From assembly GCA_903916675.1 (NCBI GenBank), contig CAIWXQ010000018.1:62001-126000 (forward strand): DNA of 64,000 nt. Reading direction: 5' to 3'. A program made the position numbers and the translations under genes. Positions 20,754-60,981 of the stretch are shown here, one piece after another (position 1 is the first letter of the stretch; every line of letters begins with the position of its first letter). Under the pieces are notes generated by a model, which did no database searches, was not told the origin of the DNA, and was given only the letters and a program-made list of their open reading frames with translations. This DNA is from an uncultured bacterium (GTDB lineage: Bacteria; Verrucomicrobiota; Kiritimatiellia; RFP12; CAIWXQ01).

Positions 20754-23594
20754 ATGTTCCGATTCGGGCAACAGAGCTCCCGGCGGTTGCTGTGCGCGGT
20801 GCTGCTGGCAGGCGGCATGATTTTCCCGGCGCGTGCCGCGCCGTTCGACCGAACATTTGTGTTCACGCAGCCGGACGGGACAATCATCCAACTGCATGGT
20901 CGGGGCGACGAATACGCCGCCATCTTCGAGACGACGAACGGCTATGCCGTTGTGTTCAACCACGTCACCGGCGCCTACGAATACGCGCGGCGTAACGCGG
21001 CCGGCGACACCTTGGAGTCGACGGGCGCTGTCGCGGGGAAGGATGACCCCGTTGCAGTGGGTTTGCTGCGGCACGTGCGCATCGACGCCGCCGCCCGGCG
21101 CGCCCAGACGCATGCCCGCTGGCAGTGGAAGGATCAGACGACCGGCCGCTCCGATCGCTGGCGGGCGCGCAGGGAGGCCCTGCGCGCGGCGGCAGGACCG
21201 GCCGAGGCTGCCTCGACATCAGTGGTCGCGACCGCTGCTGCGATCACGCTGTCGCCGCCGGTGGCCACGACCATCGGGTTCAAGCAGGGGCTCTGCCTGC
21301 TGGTGGATTTTAGCGATGCAACCGGCACCGTGTCGCAGGCCGAGATCGCCAACTTCTGCAACAGCGACAACTACACCGGGTTTCACAACAACGGGTCGGT
21401 TAAAAAATATTTTCAAGACGTCTCAAACCACCTGCTGACCTATTCCAACGTGGTGACTGCCTATGTCCGCGTGCCGTACCCCAAGAGCTACTACAACAAC
21501 ACAAGCACAGATTGCGGAACGGCGGCCAACAACCTGATCTACGACGCCATCGCCGCGCTTCGCGCGCTGCCCGGCTATGCCACGACCATCCAGCCGGCCC
21601 TGGCCGGGCTGACCGCGGACAGTTCCTCCAACGTCGTGGCCTGCAACGTATTTTTTGCCGGCAACGACAGCGGCGTCTGGGATTATGGCCTCTGGCCGCA
21701 TTCGTGGGTGCTGTCCGACGTGGGCGCCCAGGCGCTGTGGTCCGGTGGCAAGAAGATCTGGAACTACCAGATTTCGAACATCGGTTCGTCACTCGAATTG
21801 GGAACATTCTGCCACGAGAACGGCCACATGCTCTGCGACTATCCCGATCTCTACGATTACGGTTCCGACTCGGAGGGCGGAGCCGGCGCGTTCTGCCTGA
21901 TGGGCTACGGCCTCACGTATGGCTCGAACCCTGTGCAGATCTGTGCCTATCTTAAGCGTGCGTCCGGTTGGGCCGTGACCACCGACCTGACCGCTGGCAG
22001 TGTGCAGGCGGCGACGCTCAGCGCCTCGGCCGGGACGAATTTCAACCATTTCTACCGCGTGGTGAAGGCTGGCACGCCGACCGAGTATTTCCTGCTGGAG
22101 AACCGGCAGCAGACCAGTCATGACGCGTGGTTGCCCGCCGCCGGCATCGCCGTCTGGCACATCGATGAACTGGGCGATCGCGACAATCAGAGTCTGCTGA
22201 CGAACAGTGCGCATGCCAACTACGAAGTGACGCTGGTGCAGGCCGACAACCTCTGGCACTTCGAGAACAACGTGAACACCGGCGATGCCAACGACCTGTA
22301 CTACGCCGGAAACACGGCTGTCGGCTACGCCAACCGGATCGACGACACGACCGGGCCTTCCTCCGGCTGGTGGGATGGCAGCCGCTCGGGACTGATCGTC
22401 TGGGGGTTTGGTGCTCCGGCAGCGGACATGACCATCAACATGGTCTGCTGGTTGCCGCCGCAGGTGATCCTGGACCACACGACCTTGAGCTACGAGGAGT
22501 GCCTGCCGGCAAACGGCTTCATCGATCCTGGCGAACGGGTCACGCTCGACTTTGCCCTGCGGAACGCCGGCGGCTCTGACGCTTCGAACGTCGTGGCCGA
22601 CCTGCTGCCGGGCGGCGGCGTGAATCTTCCGGGTGGTTCCTGCAGCTATGGCACGTTGCCGGCCGGCGGGAAAGCCGTGACACAGTCGTACTCCTTCCTG
22701 GCCGGCGGCAGCATCGGCAGTAACCTGACGGCCACGCTGCGCGTGCGCTATGACGGTGGCGGGACTGACATGGTCTCCGCCGTGTACACATTGGGGCAAC
22801 TGGTGATGGTGACGAACAGCTCCCAGAATTTCGACAGCGTCACCGCGCCGGCCCTGCCGGCTGGATGGACGACCACGAAGAGCGGGGTGCAGTCGTACTG
22901 GACCACCGTGGCTTCCGGCAGCGACAGCGCGCCCAACGCGATCTTTGCACCCGATCCGGCCGGCGTTGGCGAGAGCGACCTGCTCAGCCCATCGATCTCC
23001 ATTACCACGGCCGCCGCCCAGCTCAGTTTCCGCAACCGGTATCAGATGGAAAGCAGTTACGATGGTGGTGTGCTGGAGATCAGCCTCAACGGCGGCGCGT
23101 TTGCCGACATCCTTTCCGCCGGCGGCAGTTTTGTCAGCAACTGCTACAATGGATCGATCTCCCCCTCGTACCAGAATCCGCTCTTCGGCCGCACGGCCTG
23201 GACCGGCAATTCCGGCGGCTATCTTACGACCATTGCAACCCTGCCTGCTGCGGCCAAGGGGCGCAACGTGCAGTTCAAGTGGCGCTGCGGCTCGGATAAC
23301 AGCATTGCGGGCGCAGGTTGGTGGATCGATACGGTGAGCGTGAGCGAGCCGACCTATGTGACGGCGGTCTGCACGTCGGCACCGGCGATTGCCTGCACGG
23401 CCATCACCAACGGCCAGATCACCCTGACGGTCAGCGGCGGTGGCGGACCGACCTTTGTTGTGGAGACCTGCACGAACTTGCTGAACCCCATCTGGAATGC
23501 CAGCACCAACACGGTAATGACGCTGCCGTTCATCTGGAGCGACACGAACGCGGCTGCTCCGGCCCGTTTCTATCGCGTGCGCCGCGGGCCTTGA
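20754..23594 (+). CDS. secreted M6-family metalloprotease
   Basis: 946 residues. A signal peptide ends near AGGMIFPARA. A prodomain-like part (TNGYAVVFNHVTGAYEYARR) is followed by the M6 catalytic domain with the zinc motif H354-E-N-G-H358 in FCHENGHMLCDYPDLYDYG, and an Asp/Met-turn region (GAFCLMGYG). Downstream are a CARDB-like segment (GFIDPGERVTLDFALRN, about residue 585), a MAM/LamG-like domain with paired hydrophobic strands, and a tail ending WSDTNAAAPARFYRVRR, a motif seen in PVC secreted proteins. Role: extracellular protein degradation, inferred. It begins at the base after the acyl-CoA ligase stop. Confidence 0.88.
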   Translation: MFRFGQQSSRRLLCAVLLAGGMIFPARAAPFDRTFVFTQPDGTIIQLHGRGDEYAAIFETTNGYAVVFNHVTGAYEYARRNAAGDTLESTGAVAGKDDPVAVGLLRHVRIDAAARRAQTHARWQWKDQTTGRSDRWRARREALRAAAGPAEAASTSVVATAAAITLSPPVATTIGFKQGLCLLVDFSDATGTVSQAEIANFCNSDNYTGFHNNGSVKKYFQDVSNHLLTYSNVVTAYVRVPYPKSYYNNTSTDCGTAANNLIYDAIAALRALPGYATTIQPALAGLTADSSSNVVACNVFFAGNDSGVWDYGLWPHSWVLSDVGAQALWSGGKKIWNYQISNIGSSLELGTFCHENGHMLCDYPDLYDYGSDSEGGAGAFCLMGYGLTYGSNPVQICAYLKRASGWAVTTDLTAGSVQAATLSASAGTNFNHFYRVVKAGTPTEYFLLENRQQTSHDAWLPAAGIAVWHIDELGDRDNQSLLTNSAHANYEVTLVQADNLWHFENNVNTGDANDLYYAGNTAVGYANRIDDTTGPSSGWWDGSRSGLIVWGFGAPAADMTINMVCWLPPQVILDHTTLSYEECLPANGFIDPGERVTLDFALRNAGGSDASNVVADLLPGGGVNLPGGSCSYGTLPAGGKAVTQSYSFLAGGSIGSNLTATLRVRYDGGGTDMVSAVYTLGQLVMVTNSSQNFDSVTAPALPAGWTTTKSGVQSYWTTVASGSDSAPNAIFAPDPAGVGESDLLSPSISITTAAAQLSFRNRYQMESSYDGGVLEISLNGGAFADILSAGGSFVSNCYNGSISPSYQNPLFGRTAWTGNSGGYLTTIATLPAAAKGRNVQFKWRCGSDNSIAGAGWWIDTVSVSEPTYVTAVCTSAPAIACTAITNGQITLTVSGGGGPTFVVETCTNLLNPIWNASTNTVMTLPFIWSDTNAAAPARFYRVRRGP

Positions 23595-55300: not shown

Positions 55301-57251
55301 CGATCATAACCCGACAGGGTTTGCCGTCTCCGGTCTGCCGGCGGGGCTGACACTGGACGCAGCCAATGGCACGATTTCCGGCACGCCCGCCGCGGGCGGC
55401 ATGACCAACGTCACGATCTTGGCCACGAACGCCTTTGGCGCGGACGCATGCACGCTGACGCTGGTCGTCAACAGCACGATCACTGCCACGGCGGGTGCGA
55501 CCGGGAGTATCGCGCCGTCGGGGAGTGTGTGGGTGAGCGGTGGGGCGTCGCAGGCGTTCACGATTACGCCCGGCGTCTGGTATGCGATCGCAGGCGTGCA
55601 GGTGGACGGGGTCTCTGCGGGCGTGGTTTCGTCGTATGGTTTCACGAACGTGACGACGAATCACACGATTGCGGCGTCCTTTGTGGCGCTGCTGGCACCG
55701 TTGGGCACGCCGCTGTGGTGGCTGGCGCGGCACGGCTATACCAACAACGAACTGGCGCTGGACCCCAACGGCGTCCCGGTCTGGAAAGACTACCTGACCG
55801 TAACAGACCCCAACACCCCGGGCTCCGGGGCTTCCTACAACATCGTCCCGTACGCCGAAGGGTTCGAGAACCTGGCAGGATGGGGCGGCGGCTACACGAA
55901 CGTGATCAACGCCATGGGGTGGTCCGGTGTGCCCGGCATGGCCCTGTCGCAGATCATCAACCTGCCGTATACCTACACGGCGACCAATCTGCCGTTGCCG
56001 GCCCTCTCGCACACCAACGTGCTGCTGGTGAACGAGCAGGGAACCATTCTGACCAACAGCTTCGGCCCCGGTTTCGACATGAGCAACGCCGTGGTCTACC
56101 TGGACCTGATGGCGCAGTTCGTGCCGATCCCCGGGGTGCCGGCTACCCTCACGGCCACGGACAGTGGGCGCAAGGGCAGCCTCTACGCCAACTCCAACCT
56201 GCAGTTGACGGTCTATCACGGCGTGGCCGCGCAAAACGGATCGCTGCTCAGCAACACCTGCGATGCCACCTCCCGGCTGCTCCCCTCGGGAACCTGGCAC
56301 CGGGTGACCTGGGCGATCGATGCGACCTCCACCAACCCGGCCAACGCGCTGGCCATGTTCCAGCTGCGCCTGGACGGGCTCTTGGTCACTCACCCGAACG
56401 CGTATGACGACACCTGGAAGGTCCAGTTCCAGAGATTCGGCACCCTGCCGGCCACCAGCGCCACCGGGACGTGGTTCCGGCTGGCGACCACCAATGCCGT
56501 GGCCAAGCTGCTGACCGCGCTCTGCTGTTTCGGCATGGGGTATCTGGACGACGTGGCAATCACGACGAACAACCCGTTCGGCGTCGTGTCCGGGCCGTAT
56601 CTGCTGATCGTCTCCAGCAGCGGCAATGGCAGCTCCTCGCTGGGCGCCGGGCCGTATGTCGCGGTGACACTGGCCGCCGGGGCCAGCACGCAGATCGTGT
56701 ACACGGCAGCAGACTGGAACCGTATATCGACCCTGGCGTCCAATGGCGTATCGCTGATCGATGCTGTCAGCGCACAAAGCTACACGCAGACGGTCCTGGG
56801 CCTCAACGCGGACCTCAGCAATGCGGTGGCGTTCGCGCTGGCCACGCCCGTGCAGACAGGCTACACCAACGTGCCGACCGCCTGGCTGACCAACTGGACG
56901 CAGGGGTCTGTGCAGGCTGCTGCCGGTCTCGACAGCTTCAGCCTGCACGATAAGTACGTGCTCGGCCTTGACCCGACCTCGTCCAACAGCTACACGCTGG
57001 TGATCGAGGGGTGTGCGCCGGCTGGCAGCAACATCGTGGTCCGGCTGCGCCGCGATGTCACCGGGGCCCTGGCGAACGGCGGCATGAACGGCTACCTGAT
57101 CCTGCAGGCGGCCAACTCACTGACCAGCGCCTTCACCAACCTGCCGGCCGTGATCCTGACCGGAAACGACGCGTTCGATGACACGGGCCACCGCAACTAC
57201 ACCAACGCCGTGGACAACCCCCGCAAGTTCTACAAGGCTGTCGTGCAGTAG
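52332..57251 (+). CDS. giant secreted protein: Asp-box beta-propellers, InlB-like and Ig-like repeats, LamG-like domain
   Basis: About 1639 residues. A signal-like helix (RKRFSLAQFPVALRAATAAL) lies near residue 65, so the real start may be downstream of 52332; ATG at 52392 and 52419 are alternatives. The first 800 residues hold at least nine Asp-box/BNR motifs (SDDGGLHW, TVNGGKTW, SSNGGNTF, STNGGNSW, TTNSGASW, STNGGVSW, SSDKGRTW, STNGGSSW, TTNRGVSW), as in sialidase or GH74-type propellers. Two InlB-type B-repeats (SIGLNPSGGVYAQGT, GSIAPSGAVSVVYGG), a He_PIG Ig-like domain (FAVSGLPAGLTLDAANGTIS) and a third B-repeat follow, then a LamG-like region and the tail NAVDNPRKFYKAVVQ. Glycan binding or degradation is inferred. 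Confidence 0.83.
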   Translation: MIQLPPIRPNSPRRSWAAGQMEAFRLNNAMHPLPTKTWISGLAIGGIVGISIGARVAAAAVASIRKRFSLAQFPVALRAATAALLAGTAVAAGTNFSAMAWTARGPGGGGAMYAPAISPFNHQVLFTGSDMNDSFRSDDGGLHWVTHNFLTQMQGYKNTSGVQFTSDSNVMYCASGSRKTVNGGKTWAVMPGAGGTWGLFADGNGTNRVIESSYDNLYYSSNGGNTFSQIYTGVAMNVGGAYFNGPQIFIGTSSGLLVSVNNGTNFTLSGISGIPANQYIATFAGGTGGGTTRLFCVTFDNFSDGMFGWCSQHYMGVYRLDYGTGTWVMVTNGINRAGGDQPVYVAMATNDIQTVYLGGSESQGAPLVMLSTNGGNSWAQVFKTAHNANIATGWEGDDFSGNWNWADWGWDQFVLGLGVSPGDSRYAVITGLGFLHITTNSGASWTQAYDVTADQNPTNSPTIRNKSYQGNGLEDTSCWWLQWMSSNELFACFTDIHGMLSTNGGVSWMSPSTLSYNSTYKAARNPANGYVYAAASSVHDIYVNYMSDGRIDGGTGEALYSSDKGRTWQRLHNFTKPTIDLCLDSVNTNRMYAAVVNYGNSLGGIYVTSNINLAASSTWTKLAAPPRTEGHPLDIVALNDGTLVCTYSARTDSNGYRASSGVFVSTNGGSSWVDRSLTNMYYFTKHLTVDPHDPGQNTWYVGVFNTLYWNDQNTGLYRTTNRGVSWSNLTARADFPVESCTVDPSDSNTVYLATGANGLWYTTNAFAATPLFLQATNYPFCFPTRVYFNPYNANETWTTSFGNGMKSGLLGASSGTTCTLTTTLAGTGAGSIGLNPSGGVYAQGTVVALTATADPDSTFGGWSGALSGAQNPASLTMDADHAVTATFTRKTNTITATAGAHGSIAPSGAVSVVYGGLQTFMLAPDNGYEIASVVVDGGSMGVAGTYTFTNVIAGHTLAVSFQQLTNSPAITSPSAATGTVGAVFSYVITADHNPTGFAVSGLPAGLTLDAANGTISGTPAAGGMTNVTILATNAFGADACTLTLVVNSTITATAGATGSIAPSGSVWVSGGASQAFTITPGVWYAIAGVQVDGVSAGVVSSYGFTNVTTNHTIAASFVALLAPLGTPLWWLARHGYTNNELALDPNGVPVWKDYLTVTDPNTPGSGASYNIVPYAEGFENLAGWGGGYTNVINAMGWSGVPGMALSQIINLPYTYTATNLPLPALSHTNVLLVNEQGTILTNSFGPGFDMSNAVVYLDLMAQFVPIPGVPATLTATDSGRKGSLYANSNLQLTVYHGVAAQNGSLLSNTCDATSRLLPSGTWHRVTWAIDATSTNPANALAMFQLRLDGLLVTHPNAYDDTWKVQFQRFGTLPATSATGTWFRLATTNAVAKLLTALCCFGMGYLDDVAITTNNPFGVVSGPYLLIVSSSGNGSSSLGAGPYVAVTLAAGASTQIVYTAADWNRISTLASNGVSLIDAVSAQSYTQTVLGLNADLSNAVAFALATPVQTGYTNVPTAWLTNWTQGSVQAAAGLDSFSLHDKYVLGLDPTSSNSYTLVIEGCAPAGSNIVVRLRRDVTGALANGGMNGYLILQAANSLTSAFTNLPAVILTGNDAFDDTGHRNYTNAVDNPRKFYKAVVQ

Positions 57252-57293
57252 CAGCGGTCTTTTCGACAGTAGCCTTGCAGAATCGGTTTTCTT

Positions 57294-57384
57294 GCCGAAC
57301 GACAGACCTGTGCTGCCGCTGCCTCATCGGCCCATCGAATCCATCGGCCACTGGCAGCGGTTAGCACCAGTGGTTGGTTGGGGC
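57294..57384 (-). other. attC-like recombination site 2
   Basis: Read on the minus strand it begins GCCCCAACCAAC and ends CTGTCGTTCGGC. The inner arms TGGTGCTAACCGCTGCC and GGCAGCGGCAGCACAGG pair imperfectly with unpaired bases, as in integron attC sites. The core triplets AAC and GTT are at the expected ends. It begins one base after the last base of the stop codon of the gene at 57386-57772. Confidence 0.6.
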
Positions 57385-57385
57385 C

Positions 57386-57772
57386 TCAACTTATTCTTGA
57401 TAAGCTTTTTAACTCCGCGTGACACCCGGCACCATTGAGAAGAAGCAAGACCGTCAGAATGGTCCACCACATGTAGAACCGTTGTCTCCTTCTCATCACT
57501 AAAGTGGTCATTGTCAGAGCAAAATAGATAAGCCATCCAGCAACCAATATCCCGTATTCAGTACCCTGTTTGGTCCATGCAGAAATGACCCCAAAAAGGC
57601 CGAATGGAAACAACGGAAGATATCCGACAGCCCGTGGGTCCGGACACGCAATCAGTAATCCCGCAAGCCACGCTGCGAGAACCATGAGCAGTTTTTGTCG
57701 TGCCCGAACATCGCTCGGGCGCCGTGGGACAGGCCCGGCATAAACACCAAGAAACTCTTCCGCTTCAGACAT
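57386..57772 (-). CDS. small membrane protein of unknown function (probable cassette gene)
   Basis: 128 residues with three hydrophobic spans: LLMVLAAWLAGLLIACP (about 28-44), YLPLFPFGLFGVISAW (about 50-66) plus GILVAGWLIYFALTMTTLVM (about 72-92), and MWWTILTVLLLLNGAGC near the C-terminus. No family is recognised. It starts one base after the stop of the preceding small gene, so the two form a pair within one cassette. Local GC is lower than the flanks. Confidence 0.6.
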   Translation of the reverse strand: MSEAEEFLGVYAGPVPRRPSDVRARQKLLMVLAAWLAGLLIACPDPRAVGYLPLFPFGLFGVISAWTKQGTEYGILVAGWLIYFALTMTTLVMRRRQRFYMWWTILTVLLLLNGAGCHAELKSLSRIS

Positions 57773-57773
57773 A

Positions 57774-57959
57774 TCAACCTCGGCGGTACAGATTGATCAA
57801 AAAAAAGAACCACGACGAATACATTAGCGTTGTTCCAATGAATGAAACAATCATCCTGGGGTTTTGTCCAACATGCCCCCACGGATAGTTGATGATATTG
57901 ATCGCAAATGCAGCGGCAATCCCAACCGTGGTGATTAGGGTAATCTGCTTAAGTGTCAT
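57774..57959 (-). CDS. 61-residue membrane protein of unknown function (probable cassette gene)
   Basis: The start is the ATG at 57959 with AGGGAG seven bases before it; a longer frame to 57980 would run through the recombination-site core. Two spans are visible: LITTVGIAAAFAINIINYPW and MIVSFIGTTLMYSSWFFFLI, ending in LYRRG. The size, twin spans and location directly after a GTTGGGG core are typical of orphan integron cassette products. No specific function can be proposed. Confidence 0.6.
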   Translation of the reverse strand: MTLKQITLITTVGIAAAFAINIINYPWGHVGQNPRMIVSFIGTTLMYSSWFFFLINLYRRG

Positions 57960-57971
57960 GTTTCTCCCTTT

Positions 57972-58038
57972 CTGCCCCAACGACAGGCATCATGCGACGG
58001 CGCGGTCAGCGACGGCGCATGCATGCCTTGGTTGGCAG
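57972..58038 (-). other. attC-like recombination site 1
   Basis: Read on the minus strand it begins CTGCCAACCAAGGCATGCAT and ends GATGCCTGTCGTTGGGGCAG. The arms AAGGCATGCATGCG and CGCATGATGCCT pair with one or two extrahelical bases. The left end is one base after the TAA of the gene at 58040. The right end (GTTGGGG) is directly followed by the ribosome site of the next gene. It shares the CCAACCAA and CTGTCGTT elements with the site at 57294. Confidence 0.65.
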
Positions 58039-58039
58039 T

Positions 58040-58351
58040 TTAGTATCGTTTCCATGCACGCGGCAAGTCAGGGTCATCGGATAACAATGACACTCGGAAT
58101 GCTTTGTCGACCACGACCTTGGTTGCATGTTCTCGCAGCACCTGTTGGTGGGGGCCTGGTCCTATCCATTCCTTTAACCCGAAGAGTGTCCTGTCAGCAT
58201 CTCGAAAGAGGAGTGCTGTGTACGATTCTGAATCCGTCCTGTCGGTGCGCCACTCACACAGGACAGCGAAAAGCCATGAATGCTTGCGATCTTTACGAGC
58301 TAACCCTTTCGGTTTCACCTCTCGCCAATATCCATGTCCCTGATATTTCAT
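58040..58351 (-). CDS. 103-residue orphan protein (probable cassette gene)
   Basis: The start is the ATG at 58351, with AGGATG as a ribosome site and a GTTGGCA core-like heptamer 10 bases upstream. The protein is soluble and mixed in charge (KYQGHGYWREVKPKGLARKD, HSWLFAVLCEWRTDRTDSE, LFGLKEWIGPGPHQQVL) and ends PRAWKRY. I recognise no family. The attC-like site 57972-58038 follows immediately at its 3' end, as expected of a cassette. Confidence 0.6.
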   Translation of the reverse strand: MKYQGHGYWREVKPKGLARKDRKHSWLFAVLCEWRTDRTDSESYTALLFRDADRTLFGLKEWIGPGPHQQVLREHATKVVVDKAFRVSLLSDDPDLPRAWKRY

Positions 58352-58493
58352 CTTTTCATCCTGCCAACGTCTGTGTAGTTCTCTGCGGCTTTTGCTGGAA
58401 GATCCAGACCAACAGCGTGACGATACACCCCAAAAATGCAACCAGTCAAACCATTCTCGGGCACTGAACGCAGGTATTCGTGGGAATTGACCA

Positions 58494-58606
58494 GATTAGG
58501 CCGCGGAGTCCTAATCACTGCCGCGACTGCAGCGCAATAGCCGAAAATGCGCTCTCGAATGCGCCTTCTCATCGGCTTTTCCGGGATTAGGTCGCGGCGG
58601 CCTAAT
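58494..58606. repeat. 113-bp element bounded by inverted ATTAGG hairpins
   Basis: Each end is a hairpin: GATTAGG-(9)-CCTAATC at 58494-58516 and ATTAGG-(9)-CCTAAT at 58586-58606. The two hairpins are inverted relative to each other. Between them is another imperfect hairpin, AGCCGAAAATGCGC / GCGCCTTCTCATCGGCT. It looks like a small non-coding mobile unit. No gene is seen in 58455-58784 apart from this element and AT-rich sequence. Confidence 0.75.
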
Positions 58607-58784
58607 TATTTGCTAAGAAAATAGGTTTTGTAGTTTGCTGGCCTGCAAAATGTTGTGGGAAATGAACACTCGGGTGTCTCGTGTCACACCCCAGAATTGT
58701 CCGATTTGCCCTTTCGCCTGCTTTCGGCATCTGCGATAGTGGCGGCATCACGATTGACGCCGGCTGTTGACTGGAGGCCTTGGC

Positions 58785-59129
58785 ATGACGACGCGAACGC
58801 TCTCTCCGGAACTGCTGCGCAGAATGGACGCCTACCCGTGGCTGATCCACCGCCTGACGTACCGCCGCGCCAACCACCCCAACATCCACGTCCGCGGCTA
58901 CAAGGAGGAGGGGACCATTACTACGGCGTTCGACATGACAGTGCTCAACGACATGGACCGCTTCCACCTCGCCATGGACGCCATGGACCGCCTGCCGCAG
59001 CTCGGCGACGCGCGCGTTTATTGGAAGCAGCAGCTCCAGGAGAAGCTGGTCGAGCACCGGCAGTACATCGCCGCGAACGGCCAGGATCTGCCGGAGATTC
59101 GGAACTGGCAGTGGGGCGGGAAGCGGTAA
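58785..59129 (+). pseudogene. phosphoketolase C-terminal domain fragment
   Basis: 114 residues that match only the C-terminus of xylulose-5-phosphate/fructose-6-phosphate phosphoketolase: PWLIHRLTYRRANHPNIHVR, GYKEEGTITTAFDMTVLNDM, DRFHLAMDAMD, and LPEIRNWQWGGK at the end. A complete enzyme has about 800 residues and no remainder is found upstream. The fragment begins with a good GGAGG site eight bases before the ATG, so it could be translated, but alone it lacks the TPP-binding domains. Either a deletion remnant or a captured domain; a remnant is more likely. Confidence 0.8.
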
Positions 59130-59251
59130 GGACAATCCACGCGCCGAGCCCAAAGGATGGGACCCGCCGGGCACGTTGGCTGACGCACGGCTGGGGCGCG
59201 GATCGGGCCGCCCGGGTCGCGCAGGATTCCGCCCCCGTCTGTGGCGATATT

Positions 59252-59322: not shown

Positions 59323-60981
59323 TCACGGACGTTCCATGAAGCGTATAAATGCGATGTACCCTGCCAGCAGCGTCGCCTGCAGCGCAAGCTGGACGCCGAA
59401 CAGCCCTGCGGCGTGCAGATTCCCAGACTGCCAGTGCGCCACGCCGAATGCCATGCTGGCCGCCATCGCGCCACAGGCTGTGAGCCCATGCACGGTCAGC
59501 AACCCGCGCCGCACCCCGCCGTCTGGGCGAGGTGGCAGAGCCTCGAGCCGGCAGTCGCCCTCCGGCGGCTGGTAGCCTTCTGCGCCTCCCAGCCGTTTCC
59601 ACACGCGGAACCCGCGGTAGTGGAAGACGAAGGCGATGACTGTGAAGGCGCCGCTCCAGAGGAAGAGGAAGCGGTAGGCGTACTGGTCGGTCGTCGTGAA
59701 CAGCCGCACGCCATCCACGAACAGGCCGGCCAGCAAGCCGCCGATCATGGTGCAGATCGAGCGGATCAGCGACTGGGCGCCGCAGAACTGGCCGTAGCGT
59801 TCGCGCGGGAACAGCAGCATTTGGCGCGGTGAAGCTGCCACGATGTTCAATGCCTGGCTGAATACGCCGAACGGCAGCACGGCGAGCGCGGTCCAGAAAT
59901 AGAAATTGGCTGAAGGTGGATCGGTAAACGCCCAGATCCAGTTGTTAAAGGCCAGAAACGCGCCCATCGCCGTGCCATAGGCTAGCACGCGCACCGGGTT
60001 CCAGCGGTCCACCAGGATGCCGGCAAACACCATCGCCGCCGCTGCGACCCACAGGGAGATGGCGCTGAGCTTGCCGAACTGGTCCGGCGTCAGTCCCAGC
60101 GAGAACGAGAAAAACATGCCGAAGCTTCCGGTGATCGTCCCGCCGATGCCGACAAACGCCGTATACAGAAACAGGTCCCAGTAAAAGCGGCTCGAATAGC
60201 ATTCCCGCGCGAATGTCTGGATGTCGCGCCGCAGGCTCGGCGCCTGGCCGGAGTCGTCGAGCGGCGGGTACGTGCGTTCCTTCACTCGCAGGCACATCAG
60301 CCCGAACCCCGCGACGTACAACACCGCCGCGCCGAGGAAGATTTCCCGCATGTGGCTGGTTGCGAACCGGAAGACGAAGAAATAATACAGGCCGCTGCTC
60401 AGGGCGCCCACGGTGCGGAACCAGCCCATGAACCGCCCCAGGTAGGCCGTCGGCACGACGTCGTTGAACAGATACCAGTAGACCGAAGACACGAACATGT
60501 TGAACAGGTCGAAGCAGCCGGCAAACACCGCGAGTAGAACGATGATGACCGATGTCTGGTGGATCGTTCCGCCCGCGAAAAAGGAATGGTGCAGCCAGCG
60601 GCCGATGTCGTCGCTGAAACCGATCAGGATCAGCGAGACAGCCAGAAAGGGCATGGTGGCGAGGATGAAGGGGATGCGCCGCCCCCAGCGGCTGCGATAG
60701 CGGTCGCTCTTGAAGCTGACCCACGGGCAGATGGTCGTGTTGAACACGCCCGGCAGAGTCGATAGGATCAGGCCGATCGTCCAGTTGGGGGAAGACAGCT
60801 CCTTCAGCTTGAGGGGGAGGATGGACGGCACGACGGCCTCCATCAGGGTGAAGCAGAAGTCTCCCCAGAGCAGCCAGGCGAAGATCACGAGCAACCCGCG
60901 CCGCGTGTAGATTAGATTTCCACAGCGGATCGTTGGCGTTTCGCCGCTCATGTTCGATGGTTCCGGTGTCATCTGCGACAC
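59323..60981 (-). CDS. MFS transporter (sugar porter-like)
   Basis: 552 residues with about 14 hydrophobic spans. The cytoplasmic loop after span 2 reads SFKSDRYRSRWGRRIPFILA, the MFS motif A variant (D-R-x-R-x-x-G-R-R) typical of GPH/sucrose-type porters. The second half repeats it weakly (FAGILVDRWNPVRVLAYG). The C-terminus has two extra spans after a soluble linker (GGAEGYQPPEGDCRLEAL). The start is GTG at 60981, with ATG at 60972 or 60951 as alternatives. Substrate unknown; a glycoside or sugar is plausible. Confidence 0.88.
   Translation of the reverse strand: MSQMTPEPSNMSGETPTIRCGNLIYTRRGLLVIFAWLLWGDFCFTLMEAVVPSILPLKLKELSSPNWTIGLILSTLPGVFNTTICPWVSFKSDRYRSRWGRRIPFILATMPFLAVSLILIGFSDDIGRWLHHSFFAGGTIHQTSVIIVLLAVFAGCFDLFNMFVSSVYWYLFNDVVPTAYLGRFMGWFRTVGALSSGLYYFFVFRFATSHMREIFLGAAVLYVAGFGLMCLRVKERTYPPLDDSGQAPSLRRDIQTFARECYSSRFYWDLFLYTAFVGIGGTITGSFGMFFSFSLGLTPDQFGKLSAISLWVAAAAMVFAGILVDRWNPVRVLAYGTAMGAFLAFNNWIWAFTDPPSANFYFWTALAVLPFGVFSQALNIVAASPRQMLLFPRERYGQFCGAQSLIRSICTMIGGLLAGLFVDGVRLFTTTDQYAYRFLFLWSGAFTVIAFVFHYRGFRVWKRLGGAEGYQPPEGDCRLEALPPRPDGGVRRGLLTVHGLTACGAMAASMAFGVAHWQSGNLHAAGLFGVQLALQATLLAGYIAFIRFMERP

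Follow-up and report, generated by a model that had tools for sequence, protein, structure and literature searches.

Clusters of attC sites lacking an integron-integrase, or CALINs in the terms of the extracts of PMC9024848 and PMC9668308, are abundant elements, and 2,961 of them are counted in the set of PMC9024848. Three routes to such clusters are given in the excerpted text of PMC8618304, namely, off-target insertion by a distant integrase, loss of intI, and rearrangement, and the same text reports integrons for Verrucomicrobiota. In the literature searched, we found no study of integrons in the Kiritimatiellales-like group, which appeared only in listings from work on airborne resistomes and sewage.

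The 64,000-nucleotide stretch of DNA analyzed here (the window) comes from an incomplete draft genome, probably of this group, 2.48 Mb in 48 contigs and 87% complete. At positions 57294 to 58368, we find a CALIN: two attC sites and two head-to-tail integron gene cassettes with no integrase nearby, a reading to which we give a probability of about 0.9. It bears out the sequence-only reading, which had described an integron-like array with no integrase in view. The evidence is sequence analysis of a draft genome, from which recombination is something we infer. The array lies in intergenic DNA, flanked by a large secreted-type gene (plus strand, ending at 57251) and a shrunken phosphoketolase gene (plus strand, starting at about 58785), and its parts are as follows.

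58420 to 58449, minus strand: possible promoter-like site TTGACT-18-TATCGT, 9 of 12 consensus bases, upstream of cassette 1
58362 to 58368, minus strand: 5' core GTTGGCA, left edge of cassette 1 and junction with chromosomal DNA
57981 to 58367, minus strand: gene cassette 1, 387 bp, from the TT of its 5' core to the G of the next core (bounds from core positions)
58040 to 58351, minus strand: ORF1, 103 amino acids, orphan, with its ATG at 58351
57975 to 58037, minus strand: attC1 (R''-L''-L'-R'), 63 nt, R' GTTGGGG
57300 to 57980, minus strand: gene cassette 2, 681 bp, two genes
57774 to 57959, minus strand: ORF2, 61 amino acids, small membrane-like protein (by eye); a longer frame from a TTG is also listed
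57386 to 57772, minus strand: ORF3, 128 amino acids, membrane-like protein (by eye)
57294 to 57383, minus strand: attC2, 90 nt, R' GTTCGGC

Two attC sites and two cassettes

With filters off, a covariance model ranked attC1 (36.5 bits, E 5e-6) and attC2 (31.6 bits, E 6e-5) as the two best matches in the window, each spanning all 71 model positions and the pair lying about 0.6 kb apart by model position, while the third-best match reached 17.0 bits. Read on the minus strand, attC1 runs TGCCAACCAAGGCATG...GATGCCTGTCGTTGGGG and attC2 runs CCCCAACCAACCACTGG...CAGGTCTGTCGTTCGGC, with the ends CCAACCAA and CTGTCGTT(G/C)GG common to both. The two attC-like sites with shared ends reported in the sequence-only reading are thus present, as are two further details of its description: when the box is counted as 8 bases, each site starts one base past a stop codon (TAA 58040-58042 and TGA 57386-57388), and the GTTGGGG core of attC1 continues into CAGAAAGGGAGAAACATG, a ribosome site ahead of the ORF2 start at 57959.

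Set against RYYYAAC / GTTRRRY, the boxes of attC1 (TGCCAAC / GTTGGGG) and attC2 (CCCCAAC / GTTCGGC) retain AAC and GTT and deviate in part of their outer bases. Comparable deviations, GTTCGGC included, are seen in attC sites beside integrases of the class. In both sites the spacers measure 5 / 6, and an additional G follows the third L'' position. On the strand opposite the genes, attC1 folds at -24.2 kcal/mol, compared with -12.8 (sd 2.1) for shuffled sequences, and attC1 is the only one of the two for which that strand is the stronger fold. Against the CALIN reading counts the imperfection of attC2, which has one L-box mismatch, an R' (GTTCGGC) that departs from GTTRRRY, and a fold that is no better than many shuffles (z of -1.2 and -1.5). 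As judged from sequence, both sites are predicted substrates, probably still usable by a resident IntI.

A home-made layout scan was too weak when used alone, giving 21.7 for attC2 and 25.6 for attC1, a score reached 4 times in 60 shuffled 64-kb strands, and the covariance model was used instead. Its sources were 20 integrase-adjacent stretches, taken from elsewhere in the class, together with four class 1 plasmid regions, all scanned for a common layout to which class 1 attC sites also conform. The model holds 36 aligned sites and 15 base pairs, with 11 class genomes contributing 33 sites, 2 plasmid records the other 3, and the genome under study none; the training sites were chosen by hand from a scan whose layout had been derived from sites of that genome, attC1 included. 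The extrahelical G was considered as a mark of the clade and rejected, since G occupies this position in 47 of 94 model matches, and the others have T (26), C (20), or a gap (1). A search of positions 56800 to 59200 with Rfam gave no match up to an E value of 1.

The cassette boundaries come from a signature of the closed circle. In a circular cassette, R' and R'' at its ends form one paired attC, so that after insertion the 5' core complements the cassette's own R''. Cassette 1 matches itself in this way at 8 of 8 bases (GTTGGCAG), compared with 5 within the standing site, and cassette 2 also does so at 8 of 8 (GTTGGGGC, its 5' core), compared with 3 within the standing site. On the minus strand of the window, 11 of 5,308 GTT/AAC pairs lying 200 to 800 bases apart reach 8, and both real pairs are among the 11. 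The full self-match therefore sets the number of cassettes at two, with lengths of 387 and 681 bp, and identifies GTTGGCA at 58362-58368 as the true left edge of the array. An attC ending at that left-edge core gave no model match with filters off. The sequence-only reading was accordingly right that three small minus-strand genes are present and that a third core precedes the first of them, although the last two genes share a single cassette and GTTGGCA is a real 5' edge rather than something core-like.

The same signature recurs elsewhere. Beside the integrase on contig C40, own core and own R'' match at 7, 8, and 7 bases in all three cassettes, and on contig C31 at 8 and 8 in the two that can be tested. 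In eight arrays from the class, most cassettes have a self-match of at least 7, and the cases at 3 to 6 include pairs spanning a site that the scan had skipped. Values of 8 and 2 were found in an array on contig C11 whose last attC is without its GTT and AAC.

Cassette genes and neighboring DNA

Pfam has no family for ORF1, ORF2, or ORF3, NCBIfam has no credible one (best E value 0.023, far below the cut-off of that family), and the proteins of ORF1 and ORF3 had no match in a plasmid collection. A single-sequence AlphaFold model of ORF1 was set aside as uninformative (mean pLDDT of 47). Conserved synteny of these genes across the clade, which would speak against a mobile array, was not seen. 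The ORF1 protein was found in 1 of 345 class genomes, its own, and the ORF3 protein in 4 of 345, its own included, with the sole close match (67% identical) in G294, a genome of the same order and another family, where it lies in other surroundings.

In G294, the homologue is a two-gene module that also holds a frame homologous to ORF2, with 72% DNA identity over 551 bp; homology starts 14 bases inside cassette 2 and also ends inside it. At this locus (L194, 6530-7250), attI-like sequence stands ahead of the module and shares 81% identity over 75 bp with the attI regions of two relatives; the model matches no attC there, no integrase lies beside the module, and the G294 genome (56% complete) has no integron integrase over the cut-off. 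This locus is the relic of a decayed integron. Such a pattern would be expected of a mobile cassette present both in a decayed integron and in the window.

In 500-base windows, GC content is 0.49 to 0.53 between 57250 and 58749, compared with 0.58 to 0.66 around it. The array does have lower GC than its flanks, as the sequence-only reading had noted; since the low stretch extends about 380 bases past the array on the upstream side, GC is no clean mark of its limits. That upstream intergenic DNA (58369-58784, minus strand) carries inverted CCTAATC / GATTAGG motifs. The possible promoter-like site within it stops some 50 bases short of the left edge, and the two such sites in the region are hardly above the 1.4 expected from shuffles.

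The phosphoketolase gene beyond (58785-59129, plus strand) lacks its middle. About 17 residues, presumably those of a phosphoketolase N terminus by their resemblance to one, stand in frame with the last 97 or so of the C-terminal domain. The C-terminal part, to which the tool alignments are confined, is 56 to 75% identical to full-length proteins of three relatives, and the remnant is the genome's only XFP_C match. Its missing middle is either a real deletion or an assembly fault. The idea that the array had split the phosphoketolase gene in two was dropped, as the gene remnant apparently still has its own start and is missing its middle instead. Farther on lies an MFS-type transporter gene (59323-60981, minus strand), to which five other places in the genome show weaker paralogy. 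This flanking transporter did not lead to an empty site, as a relative at an E value of 1e-30 turned up in just 1 other of 115 genomes of the order.

Resident integrases and the origin of the array

A TIGR02249 search of the genome gave two matches over the curated cut-off of 265, at 379.1 bits on C31 and 359 bits on C40; none of 14 control genomes had a match over that value. Neither lies on the contig of the array, C18, whose 246,801 bases hold no integron integrase over the cut-off. The two resident integrases are 66% identical to each other, and the C40 enzyme shares 42% identity with both class 1 IntI1 and an integron integrase from a plasmid. R244, H375, R378, H401, and Y410 (C40 numbering), which we take to be the catalytic residues, are common to all four proteins. 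Among named proteins, the nearest to the C40 integrase, at 75% identity, belongs to an uncultured Lentisphaerae bin, and Kiritimatiellales supply several of those that follow, which makes the host a probable member of that group. Both resident integrases (L017, 8426-9730, and L019, 3709-5010) are longer than IntI1 by an N-terminal extension of roughly 100 residues. The same extension is found in a Thiodictyon plasmid integrase, and the C31 copy differs from the C40 copy at its very start.

Upstream of each resident integrase, on the opposite strand, stand three attC sites, at 37.7, 33.4, and 31.9 bits on C31 and 32.3, 30.2, and 24.7 bits on C40. Over about 129 kb of other sequence from the genome, these six integrase-adjacent sites thus span 24.7 to 37.7 bits, and the best score in background stretches with no known integron features (L018, L020, L021, and L022) was 18.6 bits. 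Besides the two integrons, the places bearing attC sites are C18 (two sites), C11 (two), C21 (one), and perhaps C14 (one). On C11, an integrase-less array (22162-23255, minus strand; L172, 10162-11255) has attC sites of 37.0 and 29.2 bits about 1 kb apart and adjoins a recO-like gene, named by eye; its last attC has decayed, with GTC in place of GTT. The single match on C21 (61136-61196; L171, 9136-9196) scores 31.3 bits, and the single, possible match on C14 (L173, 5818-5879) scores 23.8 bits. As the whole-genome run scored 150 of 4,290 candidates and missed the window's own two sites, this list is a lower bound. It is a doubtful suggestion, for now, that resident integrases acting in trans have scattered the lineage's cassette pool over the chromosome rather than keeping it in one array.

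For the array in the window, we put the odds at about even that an IntI placed it in trans. Cassettes would have been excised as circles from an array of the same or a related cell, and an IntI encoded elsewhere would have inserted them here, with a folded single-stranded attC recombining at G/TT with a non-attI, attG-like target. The upstream junction does not detectably resemble the attI regions of C31, C40, and two related integrons, and a junction with neither an attC nor attI similarity favors off-target insertion over local loss of an integrase. At the other end, the 3' core GTTCGGC resembles a cassette core more than it does a random target, and an originally longer array is therefore possible.

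That same core may instead be the start of a lost cassette in the relic of a third integron, one that lost its integrase and attI at this very site. Such loss is a route to CALINs described in the extracts of PMC8618304 and PMC9024848, and G294 displays decay of this kind, with its attI-like stretch and module, no attC, and no integrase over the cut-off. Upstream of 58368, however, we saw no attI-like sequence or remnant of intI, and the next gene in that direction is the phosphoketolase gene; we regard in-place loss as a reasonable contender that falls short of even odds. A piece broken off one of the two resident integrons and moved by rearrangement or transposition is quite unlikely: each of them still has its three attC sites and this route to CALINs is proposed in the excerpted text of PMC8618304, yet the left edge of the array coincides precisely with the G of a cassette core, just where IntI recombination would leave it, and no insertion sequence was noticed at the junctions. 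The two sites could also be chance hairpins or other repeats, such as terminators or REP-like elements, beside ordinary small genes, as the fold of attC2 and the layout scan of shuffled strands might suggest. Covariance scores well above those of any other place in the window, exact self-matches in both cassettes, and integron integrases in the genome make this explanation almost certainly wrong.

Comparison with known systems

On the question of how stranded arrays come about, this locus offers a clean case: a small integrase-less array, confirmed from raw sequence in a poorly studied Kiritimatiellales-like group, in a genome with resident integrases that could mobilize it. Integron integrases occurred in 103 of the 288 class genomes examined, a measure of how common these systems are in the class.

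The locus shares its attC layout and cassette structure with the sedentary chromosomal integrons represented by the C31 and C40 arrays and differs from them in having no intI or attI: a complete integron would have both beside the array, and here no integrase exceeds the cut-off on C18 and the 5' edge is not attI-like. Cassettes inserted at attG sites (Loot et al. 2024, as related in the extracts of PMC12444791 and PMC12901181) are similar in their non-attI place, G/TT upstream edge, and distant integrase, and differ in that here we infer the insertion and found no empty site. In the extracts of PMC9024848 and PMC9668308, CALINs comprise two or more attC sites separated by less than 4 kb, in one orientation, and with no adjoining integrase, and all of this is true of the window array. 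The two sites here compare with an average of almost 6 in the extracts of PMC9024848, and there is no difference in kind. Stranded cassette arrays are already known and common, and the array in the window is a further CALIN.
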